Assembly (NCBI GenBank): GCA_009760855.2
Contig: WPIO01000011.1
Location: 1,494,001 to 1,558,000 of the forward strand
Length of the DNA stretch: 64,000 nucleotides
DNA from: Cristatella mucedo
Taxonomy: Eukaryota > Bryozoa > Phylactolaemata > Cristatellidae
Reading direction: 5' to 3'
The position numbers and the translations under genes were made by a program. Numbering within the stretch: position 1 is the first letter of the stretch; every line of letters begins with the position of its first letter. The notes beneath the pieces are model-generated. The model was given only the letters and a program-made list of their open reading frames with translations, did no database searches and had not been told where the DNA came from. Below are positions 35,552 through 45,759 of this stretch, piece by piece.

Positions 35552-37809
35552 TCAAAGGACTGGCGCGAGCGGCGCTGGCGTCGGCAGGGCGACGACGGGA
35601 CGCACTTTCATCTCGGTGCGCGCCAGCTGCTCGTCCTTCCAGTCTATCCAGGCCATGCCCTTGAACTTGGTGCCGGTGTTGTTCGAGTACTGGCCGTTGA
35701 GGAAGGCGTGCCAGCAGTTGGTGAACCACCAGCCGGCCTCCCACTCCATGGCGCAGTGATAGTCGAGCCACTGGTCGTGATCTCGGTCGGGCGTGCTGAA
35801 TCGCACGCCGTCGTGCTTCTGCAGACTGTCCTTGGCCGTTCCTGCGACGAAAGTCAAGGCCGTATGGGCCGGCTCGTAGAGCTCCGCGTGCATCCCGAAA
35901 GGCGCCGCCGCGCTGCTCGTCGCCTTCGCGTTTGCTTCGTCCGCTGCGCCACGCGAGCGAGCGACGAGTACCGAGCTCCACGGTCGCTTTATGGCCAGAG
36001 GCAGGGAGCCGCCGGCATCGCTCTCGAGGCGAGCTAGCTGCATCGCTCGCGGCGGCGCTCTCCGTCCCCCGCAGAGGAAGCTAGAGAGAAGGAAGAGAGA
36101 GAGATAGAGAGAGGAATGGCTGGATGCCCGCCCCTCCTTTCGCTCGCTACCCGATACCGCAGCGAGCGCCGCTGCCGCTATCTGTCGCTGATTGAGCAGT
36201 CGAGGCTCGGCAGCGGCGATCAAAGTGGGCGCATCTTCAGCGCGCCACGCGGAGTCACTTAGCCGATCGCTCGGCTCTCGAGACTTCTCAAAGACAGCGG
36301 GAATCTTTAGATTGGCGAAATGCTTCGCGGCCCGAGAGGCTGAGCGAAGGCCGAGGCAGATCGAGGTCGCGGTTTCGCTTAAAATCGGAGGTCAGAGGCC
36401 TCGTGGCCGCCCTCCGCTCCGTCTCCGGCTGGAGGCTCTGTAATCCGTCCGCTACGCGGGCGGCGACCGGGGGGGGGATGGTAATTGCTCGCCCGTTGCG
36501 GCTGAGCGGAGCGGGGGGGGGGCGTGGGTGGGCGAGCTACCCTCGAGGCCGGCGCGATCCGTCAGTTTTGTTCCAGTAAAACCACGCTATACGATGGCAA
36601 GACTCGCTTTACGATGACACGGTGAAATTTCTCTCTCCCCCCCTCTCTCTCTCTCTCTCTCCATGTCGCGTCCCAAGGGTTCATACTCGGTGTGCTGTGC
36701 TGCACTCAAGCGCGTAGTACTATCTAGTGCACTTCGCTAACGGGACAAATTAACTTCCCCCCTAATGAAATCTCGATGAAAATCTTACGGGCTCCGCCGT
36801 TGCTCTAATAGCCCAGCCGCAGGCTTGGACTTCCTACTTCACTTTACAGCAAATGTAAAGCGCCTAGAGAGAGATTAAGTTCTCTGAGGGCGCTTTATCA
36901 AGTGAATTATTATTATTATTATTATTATTATTATCATTCCTATCTTAGAAACTCGCTGTGTCGCCGTTGCTTCATCGATGGCGCCAACGAGGGGACCTCG
37001 AAAGCGAGCACCGCCGCCACCGTCAGCACCTCGTTGCAGCGGCAGCCATACGGGAAGGAGGCTCACCGCTGTAATTGCCGACGTGCAGCTTGTAGCCGTC
37101 CCGCTCGCCGTCAATCTTGAAGCGTCGATACTCGGCAAACACGCGGCTGTCGTAGAAATCCCACAAATCAACTCGCAGCATGTACTCGGCTTGGTTAGTC
37201 AGCAGGAATATGTTGTCGTTGCCGAGCCAAAAGTCATGGCTCACGTTACCTGCAATATTCATCTGCATGGTCAGCTAGATAGCGCTCTCACAGAACTCCT
37301 CGCCCAAAAGAGCTATCTCTCTCTCTCTCTCTCTCTCTCTCTCTCTCTCTCTCTCTCTCTCTCTCTCTCTCTCTCTCTCTCTCTCTCTCTCTCTCTCTCT
37401 CTCTCTCTCTTCGAAGCTATGAGCCGCGGTGCGACACAGTCTGACAGAGGAAGCTAGACTGCTGCGAGAGCCTAACTTCGACGGCGCTCGGAGGGCCAGC
37501 TCAGCTGACAGAACCTATCCAAAGCGCGAGAAATGCAAGCGTCATTAGCTAATGGGATCGCCTTGGCAAGCGCCCCATGCTATTCCGTCGAGATTCGATC
37601 GCCTCTCATTCTCTCACCGAATCCCTTCCTGTAGTCGGTCCAGTTCATGTTGAACCTCTGCGAGCCTCCTCGTCGCCGCTGCAGCACCAGCCACCCGCCG
37701 GGCCACGTGTCCATGTCGCACCACACCGGGACCGGACAGGCCGAGTAGATGAACTTGACGTAATACACGTCGCTCGCCTTGTTGCCCTTCTGGAAGGCGT
37801 CGTCGCAGT
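35552..37809 (-). CDS. FREP-like exons 6-8: fibrinogen C-terminal domain
   Basis: Three exons (37809-37618, 37249-37067, 35841-35552) separated by phase-1 introns encode about 221 residues, the usual length. Conserved Cys, the [15 protein letters not shown] junction, the [14 protein letters not shown] junction and RTEMKVRP are intact. The protein ends in a short Pro/Ala/Leu tail before TGA. Confidence 0.93.
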
Positions 37810-43800: not shown

Positions 43801-45759
43801 GAGGGCGGAGCGAACTGGCCCGGAAGTGACCCGAGACGCACTGGCGAGCCGCGTCGACGAGTGCGACTTCGCAGTCGCAGGGCTCGCACCGGCAGCGGCT
43901 GCGGCCAGGTCGCCGCCGCGCGGTGCTTTAGAGGGCCGAGGAAGCGGCGTATCGCCTGCCGCCCCGGCCGCTTCCAAATAACGGTGCAAGGGCGAGCCCT
44001 GGTGGCGAGTAGTCGAATCGCGCATCAATTCCCGTGGGCTGCGCAACGAGCCGTAATAGCGCCGCTGCGTTGTAGCCCACACAGCAGTATTGGCCTCGGA
44101 TAAGACGAGTGGACGCGGCCGCGTGAGTGGTCGCCTTTTGCGCGCTCTCTCTCTCACCTGGGCAGACTGCGGCTTGTTGTAGATTCTGCAGTGTATGTCC
44201 CTGCCTTCGCCTTCGACGACGCCGATCGTGCCATTCGGCGTCATGGTGAGCCAGATCGGCGACCGTGCTGCCGTCGTTCTGCCACCGGACGGTGCTGAAA
44301 GCGGCGCAGAGGCGGGCGGAGACTGCTGAGCTCGGGCGGCGACTGCTGAGCGCAGCGACTGCTGAGCGAACGCCAGCTCTCCAGCTGGCCGACCCTGCCG
44401 GCCGGAGGTGCGGACTGGGCGCTGGCGTCGAAGCGCGTCCGTCAGGCGCTGCCCTCGCCGCTAACGCCCCCCCCCCCCAGGGCGAGACCAATCCAAACAG
44501 TTATTTCGCATTTTCTCGCTGCTTGCAGATTATAGACGTTTCCAGCTCTGAGGCCGCGGCATTTGGGTGGCTCGCGTAACCTCGCGTAATGAGAAAATTG
44601 AGTGTAGCAATCACTTTCCTAGATGTGAGAGTGCTCAATTTCTCTTCATGCCGCAATGAACTCATTAGGCGAGTCGGGAGGAGGCTGTCGACGCCCGCCG
44701 GTGGCCCGAAGCTGACCGGGTGGGGAGGGGGCTCAGTAGGGCGGCAGGCGACGACTCGGCGATGCCTCGATTACATAATGCGAAGACGACTCTCAGCTTA
44801 GCCCAACCTTTCAAGGCAGCCGATCGCAAGCCGACCGGAATAAGAGACGACGGAAATATGGGACGGAAGAGGGGGGGGGAAGCAGTGTCCAACCCGCTGA
44901 GAATGTACGTCGGCTCGCGGCTCGTCGGCTCGCGGCTCGCCGAAGCAGCCGCCAGATCTTCGGCTGCCAGAGCAGCGAGACACCGCAGGGCTTGCTTTTT
45001 AAGGCGCGGCTAGTTGGATGGGCGGTTCGGGACTGGTGCAATCATTTCGGGCAATTTCGGCACTTCACTCCTGCGTCGTCGTATCGCTCTGTACGTCAAT
45101 CGTCGGCCGTTCCGACCGTCCACGACCGGCTGTGCGGCAGGCCCCAATGTGCGTCTCTCGCTCGCGACACGCCCTTCGGCACCTAACCAGCGCCGACAAT
45201 CGTCGCGGCAGCGAAGCGCTGGCAAGCGCTCGCCTGTGGAGAGAGCAGTGGCGTCACGGCGGAAACGGGGGAGATTAGAAGCTGCACTGCCCGCCGTCGC
45301 AGCAGCGATGCGAAGGCGGTTCGGTGGCGGCAGAATGCAGCGAACGCCGGCGACACGTTTAGATCGACGTCTAGCGGCGACTTCAGACTCATCGCTCGTC
45401 GCGACGTGAACCGCAGTTTTCGACGCGCTCGACACAGGACTGGGCAAGCACTCACCCGACTCCTTGCTTCCGCTCGCAGGCTGCAGCGGTGCGCTCTTTG
45501 TCGTGGAGGCCTGCGCTAGTGCAGCCGCTTGGCCCCTGTCCGCCAGCTGACCGCCGTCTGCCGCCGGCTCGTCTGCCGACTGCCAGTCGTCAAAAATGTC
45601 GACGGGCGACCGCGCGACCGCCCTGCGTCCGGCGGGCGTTCGAGACGCCTCAGCGCCGTTCGACGTCAAGCCGGTGGCAGCGGCGGAGGCGAGCAAAGTC
45701 AGCAGCAACAGCGGCGATGACAGCGGGCGACATCGACGATCGGCCTTTACGCTCGACAT
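35552..45759 (-). CDS. FREP-like secreted protein: Ig domain, coiled coil, fibrinogen domain
   Basis: Eight coding exons: 45759-45456, 44294-44158, 41495-41255, 41105-40189, 40012-39694, 37809-37618, 37249-37067, 35841-35552. Phases 1,0,1,0,1,1,1 match at every junction, total 2583 nt, 860 residues. Order: signal peptide ([14 protein letters not shown]); acidic/Ala-rich spacer; one Ig domain (about 110-228) with Cys in DIHCRIYN, Trp in VQWYY and DDGQYSC; an Ala/Thr/Ser-rich stalk (228-about 440); [15 protein letters not shown]; heptad coiled coil (about 495-625); fibrinogen C-terminal domain (640-860). The fibrinogen domain has [29 protein letters not shown], Ca-site [20 protein letters not shown] and RTEMKVRP. 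FREPs are oligomeric pathogen-binding lectins in snail haemolymph; one Ig instead of two and the long stalk are unusual. Angiopoietin-like proteins are an alternative. An upstream in-frame ATG exists at 45831. Confidence 0.88.
36845..36935 (+). mobile_element. LINE 3' tail fragment
   Basis: GTAAAGCGCCTAGAGAGAG, then CTCTGAGGGCGCTTTATCAA and (ATT)8. It lies antisense in the last intron of the FREP-like gene. Confidence 0.8.
37315..37410. repeat. (CT)n microsatellite
   Basis: Forty-eight uninterrupted CT units in FREP-like intron 6, about 65 bp upstream of the exon 7 acceptor in the gene's sense, where it reads as (AG)n. Confidence 0.97.
39694..40012 (-). CDS. FREP-like exon 5: coiled coil
   Basis: Heptads from [19 protein letters not shown] through [15 protein letters not shown], presumably driving oligomerisation. 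A single Cys ([10 protein letters not shown]) before the fibrinogen domain could form an inter-chain bond. One NHT and one NAS N-glycosylation sequon are present. Confidence 0.88.
40189..41105 (-). CDS. FREP-like exon 4: Ala/Thr-rich stalk and start of coiled coil
   Basis: 917 nt with no stop. The first two thirds are Ala, Thr and Ser with Pro and Gly, mucin-like and a likely O-glycosylation target. A folded-looking segment with two Cys ([15 protein letters not shown]) follows, then the first heptads ([19 protein letters not shown]). Donor ATC|GTAAGA. Confidence 0.85.
41255..44294 (-). CDS. FREP-like exons 2-3: immunoglobulin domain
   Basis: Exon 2 (44294-44158) supplies the first sheet and Cys ([15 protein letters not shown]). 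Exon 3 (41495-41255) supplies the core Trp and the [11 protein letters not shown] strand F. A phase-0 intron of 2.66 kb cuts between strands B and C; the domain's outer introns are phase 1, as usual for Ig modules. The intron carries a (CT)n array and a LINE tail. Confidence 0.88.
42148..42275. repeat. (CT)n microsatellite
   Basis: About 64 CT units, nearly pure, in FREP-like intron 2. Confidence 0.97.
43035..43110 (+). mobile_element. LINE 3' tail fragment
   Basis: AGATCAAGTTCTCTGAGGGC, then GCTATATCAAATG and a decayed ATT run. Antisense in FREP-like intron 2. Confidence 0.65.
44321..44372. repeat. Short tandem of GACTGCTGAGC units
   Basis: Three copies of an 11-bp unit with short spacers in intron 1 of the FREP-like gene. 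Confidence 0.7.
45456..45759 (-). CDS. FREP-like exon 1: signal peptide
   Basis: Start chosen at 45759 because [10 protein letters not shown] leads directly into a hydrophobic core ([15 protein letters not shown]) with a plausible cleavage after Ala. Donor GAGTCGG|GTGAGT, phase 1. The mature N-terminus is acidic and Gln/Ala-rich. Confidence 0.85.

Follow-up and report, generated by a model that had tools for sequence, protein, structure and literature searches.

An immunoglobulin-fibrinogen gene of FREP-like architecture and its paralogue

Does an immunoglobulin (Ig) domain encoded ahead of a fibrinogen domain, a type of lectin that two published accounts assign to gastropods (PMC8878817, PMC12074976), belong to one gene, and does such a gene qualify as a FREP? 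The question is raised by a minus-strand gene at positions 35552-45759 of a 64-kb stretch of genomic DNA (C22:1494001-1558000, hereafter the window), which was analyzed together with the 572-Mb genome of 688 contigs that contains it. The window gene is a real gene. Comparison with a paralogue indicates that its Ig, coiled-coil, and fibrinogen exons are one old, maintained gene, inherited together over a long time. Its product, laid out like a FREP with one Ig domain, is probably a two-headed protein for recognition or adhesion that is secreted and forms oligomers.

Independent rebuilding of the gene model from the window DNA yielded eight exons with GT...AG boundaries at all seven introns, phases that fit at every junction, and a spliced product of 860 amino acids. 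The start codon, the stop codon, and a hydrophobic leader are all present, and from N to C terminus the leader is followed by a linker, one Ig domain, a stalk, a two-cysteine motif, a coiled coil, and a fibrinogen domain that is split over three exons. The initial annotation of this DNA had proposed the eight phase-compatible exons, a single chain in which a leader precedes Ig and fibrinogen domains separated by a coiled coil, and the single Ig domain with a three-exon fibrinogen domain; all of this was borne out by the rebuilt model, with the Pfam matches supporting the two domains and the paralogue repeating the structure. The exons are as follows:

45456-45759, minus strand: exon 1, left in phase 1; encodes the start codon, a hydrophobic leader read by eye as a signal peptide, and a low-complexity linker
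44158-44294, minus strand: exon 2, entered in phase 1 and left in phase 0; encodes the N-terminal portion of the Ig domain, including its first cysteine (C137)
41255-41495, minus strand: exon 3, entered in phase 0 and left in phase 1; encodes the remaining Ig domain with W150, the second cysteine C207, and DDGQYSC
40189-41105, minus strand: exon 4, entered in phase 1 and left in phase 0; encodes the Ala/Ser/Thr/Pro-rich stalk, the two-cysteine motif (C456, C470), and a lead-in to the exon 5 coil
39694-40012, minus strand: exon 5, entered in phase 0 and left in phase 1; encodes the coiled coil, whose top-scoring heptad window starts at residue 542
37618-37809, minus strand: exon 6, entered and left in phase 1; encodes the first part of the fibrinogen domain
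37067-37249, minus strand: exon 7, entered and left in phase 1; encodes the second part of the fibrinogen domain, with 84% identity to the paralogue
35552-35841, minus strand: exon 8, encodes the third part of the fibrinogen domain, which bears the calcium-site aspartates and the PS00514 motif, and a short tail that ends at the stop codon (35552-35554)

No further Ig or fibrinogen exons resembling those of the gene were found in the rest of the window. Long (CT)n runs were observed in two of its introns (37313-37415 and approximately 42140-42276).

The fibrinogen domain is complete, with Fibrinogen_C (PF00147) covering model positions 3-220 of 221 at residues 639-846 (E 1.5e-62) among seven Pfam matches to the product. 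Against solved structures it matched tenascin-R best (E 8.4e-50), followed by tachylectin-5A and FIBCD1, and it was 44% identical to each of the three; in NCBIfam a GGGWT match alone was returned, under its cut-off. The Ig region has a C...W...DxGxYxC pattern that is identical in the window gene and the paralogue, and 69 residues lie between the loop cysteines C137 and C207. Between the Ig and fibrinogen domains is an interval of approximately 410 residues, which includes an Ala/Ser/Thr/Pro-rich stalk of approximately 220 residues that has no cysteine. The heptad contrast of the coil was matched by 3 of 1000 shuffles for the window gene and by none of 1000 for the paralogue, and therefore a coiled coil, and hence oligomers, are supported. 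Both copies retain eight cysteines, four pairs by position, and the two-cysteine motif ahead of the coil. A narrow pattern for this motif matched only these two genes when 32 loci and the window were scanned, a set that often leaves the N-terminal exons of the other genes outside.

The paralogue (C155:2682891-2695459, 793 residues) shares all eight exons and all seven intron phases with the window gene and has a hydrophobic leader of its own. Amino-acid identity between the two is 48 and 46% in the Ig exons and 66, 84, and 71% in the fibrinogen exons. The nonsynonymous distance was lower than the synonymous in 9/9 segments, calculated with gapped codons excluded (e.g., 126 of the 221 stalk codons counted). 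Constraint was least clear in the halves of exon 4, at 0.94 nonsynonymous vs. 1.56 synonymous for the stalk and 0.63 vs. 0.99 after it, and the synonymous distance was saturated in both Ig exons. It is the shared exons and phases together with the lower nonsynonymous distances that place the Ig and fibrinogen exons in a single old and maintained gene. An Ig-domain query of the genome gave four exon matches at E up to 10, two each in the window gene and the C155 paralogue, and thus two loci. The count covers Ig domains similar to the query, and distant Ig types may lie beside other fibrinogen genes. These comparisons indicate that both copies are constrained and that the family is not expanded by the Ig query.

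In the proposed mechanism, the leader would mediate export from the cell. Several chains would be bundled by the coiled coil, possibly aided by the conserved cysteine pair C456/C470, and the low-complexity stalk would keep the Ig heads apart from the fibrinogen heads. The fibrinogen heads may hold calcium and bind a ligand, though, given the different aromatic residues, probably not through the acetyl pocket typical of such lectins, and the Ig heads may bind a second partner or one another. The protein would act as a germline-constant bridge between two targets, for example linking a cell to the surface of a microbe or tissue, and not as a diversifying receptor.

Several observations weigh against such a secreted, two-headed protein. 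The leader was judged by eye, and the Ig domain was detected weakly, with V-set (E 1.5e-4) and Ig_3 (E 2.6e-4) Pfam matches to the window product under the curated cut-offs and Ig_3 (E 2.7e-5) and I-set (E 9.3e-5) matches to the paralogue Ig exons under the cut-off too. The window Ig region alone matched solved structures at a best E of 0.0028 (antibody light chains), and a two-copy Ig profile gave three matches at E <= 0.001. Weak automatic detection of Ig domains is reported for mollusc Ig-lectin proteins (in part of PMC9334734). The third point concerns the ligand site, as the acetyl-pocket residues described for FIBCD1, Tyr405, His415, and Tyr431 (PMC3908420), correspond to Trp, Trp, and Phe in both copies, with FIBCD1 positions 432 and 443 falling in alignment gaps. 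The calcium-site aspartates (FIBCD1 Asp393 and Asp395) are retained in the window gene and the paralogue according to the alignment, as is the Cys414 position of fibrinogen lectins. Lectin activity would not be predicted from the usual pocket residues. The pocket change alone tells little of function because ficolin-3 and further fibrinogen genes of the genome likewise show variation at these sites; since the two copies have the identical altered pocket, a different ligand is predicted.

That the window gene is a true FREP of a gastropod, an orthologue of the Ig-lectin immune proteins by which snails bind parasites and bacteria, is a narrower form of the preferred explanation, with which its odds overlap, and by itself it appears doubtful. 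The comparison used the criteria set out in PMC7588048. One or two Ig superfamily domains with a cysteine loop of over 40 amino acids are represented by the single Ig domain and its 69 residues (Ig matches under cut-off), the C-terminal fibrinogen domain is complete, the domain order is the same, and a coil lies between the domains. The SCRDV-like start motif of the fibrinogen domain is KDCDDAF in the window gene, in which the cysteine aligns and the other residues differ, and PROSITE pattern PS00514 is matched at residue 802 of the window product and missed by the paralogue at one position (V for [GSA]). An EMKIRE-like motif should stand right before the stop, but EMKVRP is followed by a tail of 14 residues in the window product and EMKIRP by 19 in the paralogue. 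The interceding region, often coiled in FREPs and with a supported coil in the window gene, spans about 410 residues vs. the 14-320 published for FREPs, and instead of an expanded multigene family, such as the 39 FREP genes of Biomphalaria glabrata (PMC7588048), only the two loci of the Ig query were found. Because only two FREPs are reported for the gastropod Aplysia (in part of PMC9334734), the low copy number is compatible with a FREP; this precedent raises the odds of a gastropod FREP and lowers those of a non-gastropod reading. As to distribution, bona fide FREPs are described as confined to Heterobranchia in part of one account (PMC8878817), and the Ig-bearing fibrinogen type is placed in Heterobranchia and Caenogastropoda in part of another (PMC12074976).

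The label of gastropod FREP in the initial annotation was upheld for the domain architecture and most of the published criteria and failed on the end motif with its tail; the interval is longer than the published range, and nothing that was tested points to gastropods. Its diversified family was not borne out, given two constrained loci genome-wide by the Ig query, although the two Aplysia genes leave room for a FREP. The window gene is termed FREP-like in architecture and was not classed as a FREP.

Similarly unlikely is a secreted ligand of the angiopoietin type to which an Ig domain was added. Such a ligand would oligomerize through its coiled coil, and its fibrinogen heads would bind a host receptor during development or in the matrix. 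This reading would account for the two-cysteine motif that both copies share ahead of the coil and that presumably resembles the angiopoietin N-terminal motif, for two constrained genes in place of an expanded family, and for the replaced acetyl pocket. Its test was a fibrinogen-domain tree of 24 rows, 18 from this genome and six references, several of them partial; except for the window gene and the paralogue, the rows from this genome were pieced together from tblastn matches. The tree omitted a 64-amino-acid piece on C29, two loci on C166 (L003 and L004), three on C177 (653k, 711k, and 763-766k), and further pieces on C668. The window gene and the C155 paralogue formed a 99/99 pair with a weakly supported neighbour on C110 (83/88), and angiopoietin-1 and -2 formed their own 99/98 pair without the window gene. 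The initial annotation had named beforehand a position of the fibrinogen domain inside the angiopoietins, lacking an Ig partner, as evidence against its reading; the domain stood apart from that pair in a tree whose deep forks are not resolved. The top solved-structure scores likewise went to tenascin-R and tachylectin-5A, and the ANG-1-like Pfam match reached only E 0.2. Membership in the angiopoietins was rejected as unsupported by the tree and this weak Pfam match.

A wrong join of a neighbouring Ig gene and fibrinogen gene, for which introns of up to 2.7 kb and a model drawn from genomic DNA alone might speak, was rejected as very improbable since the eight exons recur at the C155 locus with order, strand, and phase unchanged and the genome-wide Ig query found exons of this sort nowhere else.

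For the secreted, two-headed protein preferred here, immune use would by analogy be the likeliest single role, closely followed by a function in the matrix or in signalling. The immune role in the initial annotation stands to that extent; its pathogen recognition was an inference only, and the acetyl pocket is replaced in both copies. A further, tentative possibility is that the Ig-plus-fibrinogen pairing occurs also in a non-gastropod lophotrochozoan, where two old and fixed genes combine a cysteine module like that of angiopoietins, placed ahead of the coil, with a remodelled pocket. Such a set would be either a pre-gastropod ancestor that later gave rise to the diversifying FREP family or an independent invention of this design. 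No Ig-plus-fibrinogen protein outside gastropods was seen described in the accessible parts of the published accounts, most subscription papers being out of reach. Ig-plus-lectin molecules are a leading example, among invertebrates, of recognition proteins that diversified as a family; two genes of this architecture that are conserved and not expanded would show the design without the diversification. If the host is not a gastropod, the gene bears on FREP origins.

The mitochondrial contig (C688; 21,008 bases, 44.5% GC) reads with translation table 5 and has a stretch, including a piece of nad3, repeated at approximately 2.1-kb spacing. Its cox1 has two AAA codons and several AGA/AGG codons at positions where other animals have Lys and Ser, respectively. 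With genes named by eye, nad1-nad6-cob-nad4L-nad4-nad5 lie on one strand; Rfam located rrnL, and rrnS and atp8 were not located on the contig. The mitochondrial gene order of heterobranch snails is different. The six-gene block corresponds to the conserved lophotrochozoan order (as given in part of PMC5162086), and cox3-atp6-cox1-nad3 and nad2-cox2 are rearranged relative to that order. The block is not kept in the portions considered of two lottiid limpet mitochondrial gene tables (PMC7648102). Searches for the mollusc hemocyanin and tyrosinase domains and for Chitin_bind_4 gave no match, and the controls were silent too, so that absence is not shown. The gene order points to a lophotrochozoan host; an arthropod is unlikely, given the fit of the block to lophotrochozoans and the lack of a Chitin_bind_4 match under a silent control. 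Matches resembling cox1 with TGA codons were observed in large contigs (C166:4376013-4376357 and C549:2641783-2642016) and are probably mitochondrial DNA moved to the nucleus.

The genome carries 52 fibrinogen exon matches, many of them clustered on C177, C166, and C668. Grouping of exon matches gave approximately nine fibrinogen genes in a row at C177:465091-885131 and smaller groups on C166 and C668. A second fibrinogen pair, C22:1282830-1284310 (L015) and C155:3019798-3023894 (L016), was joined at 99/98 in the tree, its members lying approximately 245 and 324 kb from the Ig-fibrinogen genes on the same two contigs. The contigs shared by both pairs hint at an old block or whole-genome duplication.

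Elsewhere in the window, a stop-free open frame of 544 codons (5690-7321, plus strand) had no Pfam match at E 0.1. Several frames resembling C2H2 zinc fingers by eye, perhaps of one gene, occupy 54071-63502 on the minus strand, where one 66-residue segment matched zinc-finger families under cut-offs. A 63-base repeat occurs in five copies (33111, 33685, 34233, 36858, and 43052), some ending in ATT runs, which presumably resembles the tail of a long (LINE) or short (SINE) interspersed element. Frames on the minus strand at 24662-24976 and 25366-25740 carry GDKSFSSAGPRLWNSLP-like sequence, which we take to be the usual remnant of the reverse-transcriptase end of a LINE.

Compared with known systems, the window gene has its top solved-structure match in the fibrinogen domain of tenascin-R; tenascins bear EGF and fibronectin-III repeats, whereas neither is among the Pfam matches to the window product. 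Angiopoietins similarly place a coiled coil before the fibrinogen domain, but the window gene has an Ig domain, and its fibrinogen domain lies outside the angiopoietin pair. Tachylectin-5A, FIBCD1, and ficolin-3 are lectins without an Ig domain; they share 43-44% fibrinogen-domain identity, the calcium aspartates, and the Cys414 position with the window gene, which differs in having Trp/Trp/Phe at the FIBCD1 pocket positions. The closest layout is that of one-Ig gastropod FREPs (VIgL family) such as FREP2 and FREP4 of Biomphalaria, with a leader, one Ig domain, an interceding region, a C-terminal fibrinogen domain, and PS00514, the interceding region being coiled in FREP4, as in the window gene, and not in FREP2 (in part of PMC7588048). 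Unlike FREPs, the window gene has the longer interval, an EMK motif set off from the stop, a family of two genes vs. 39 in Biomphalaria, and eight exons compared to the single exon reported for each of FREP2 and FREP14 (PMC7588048).

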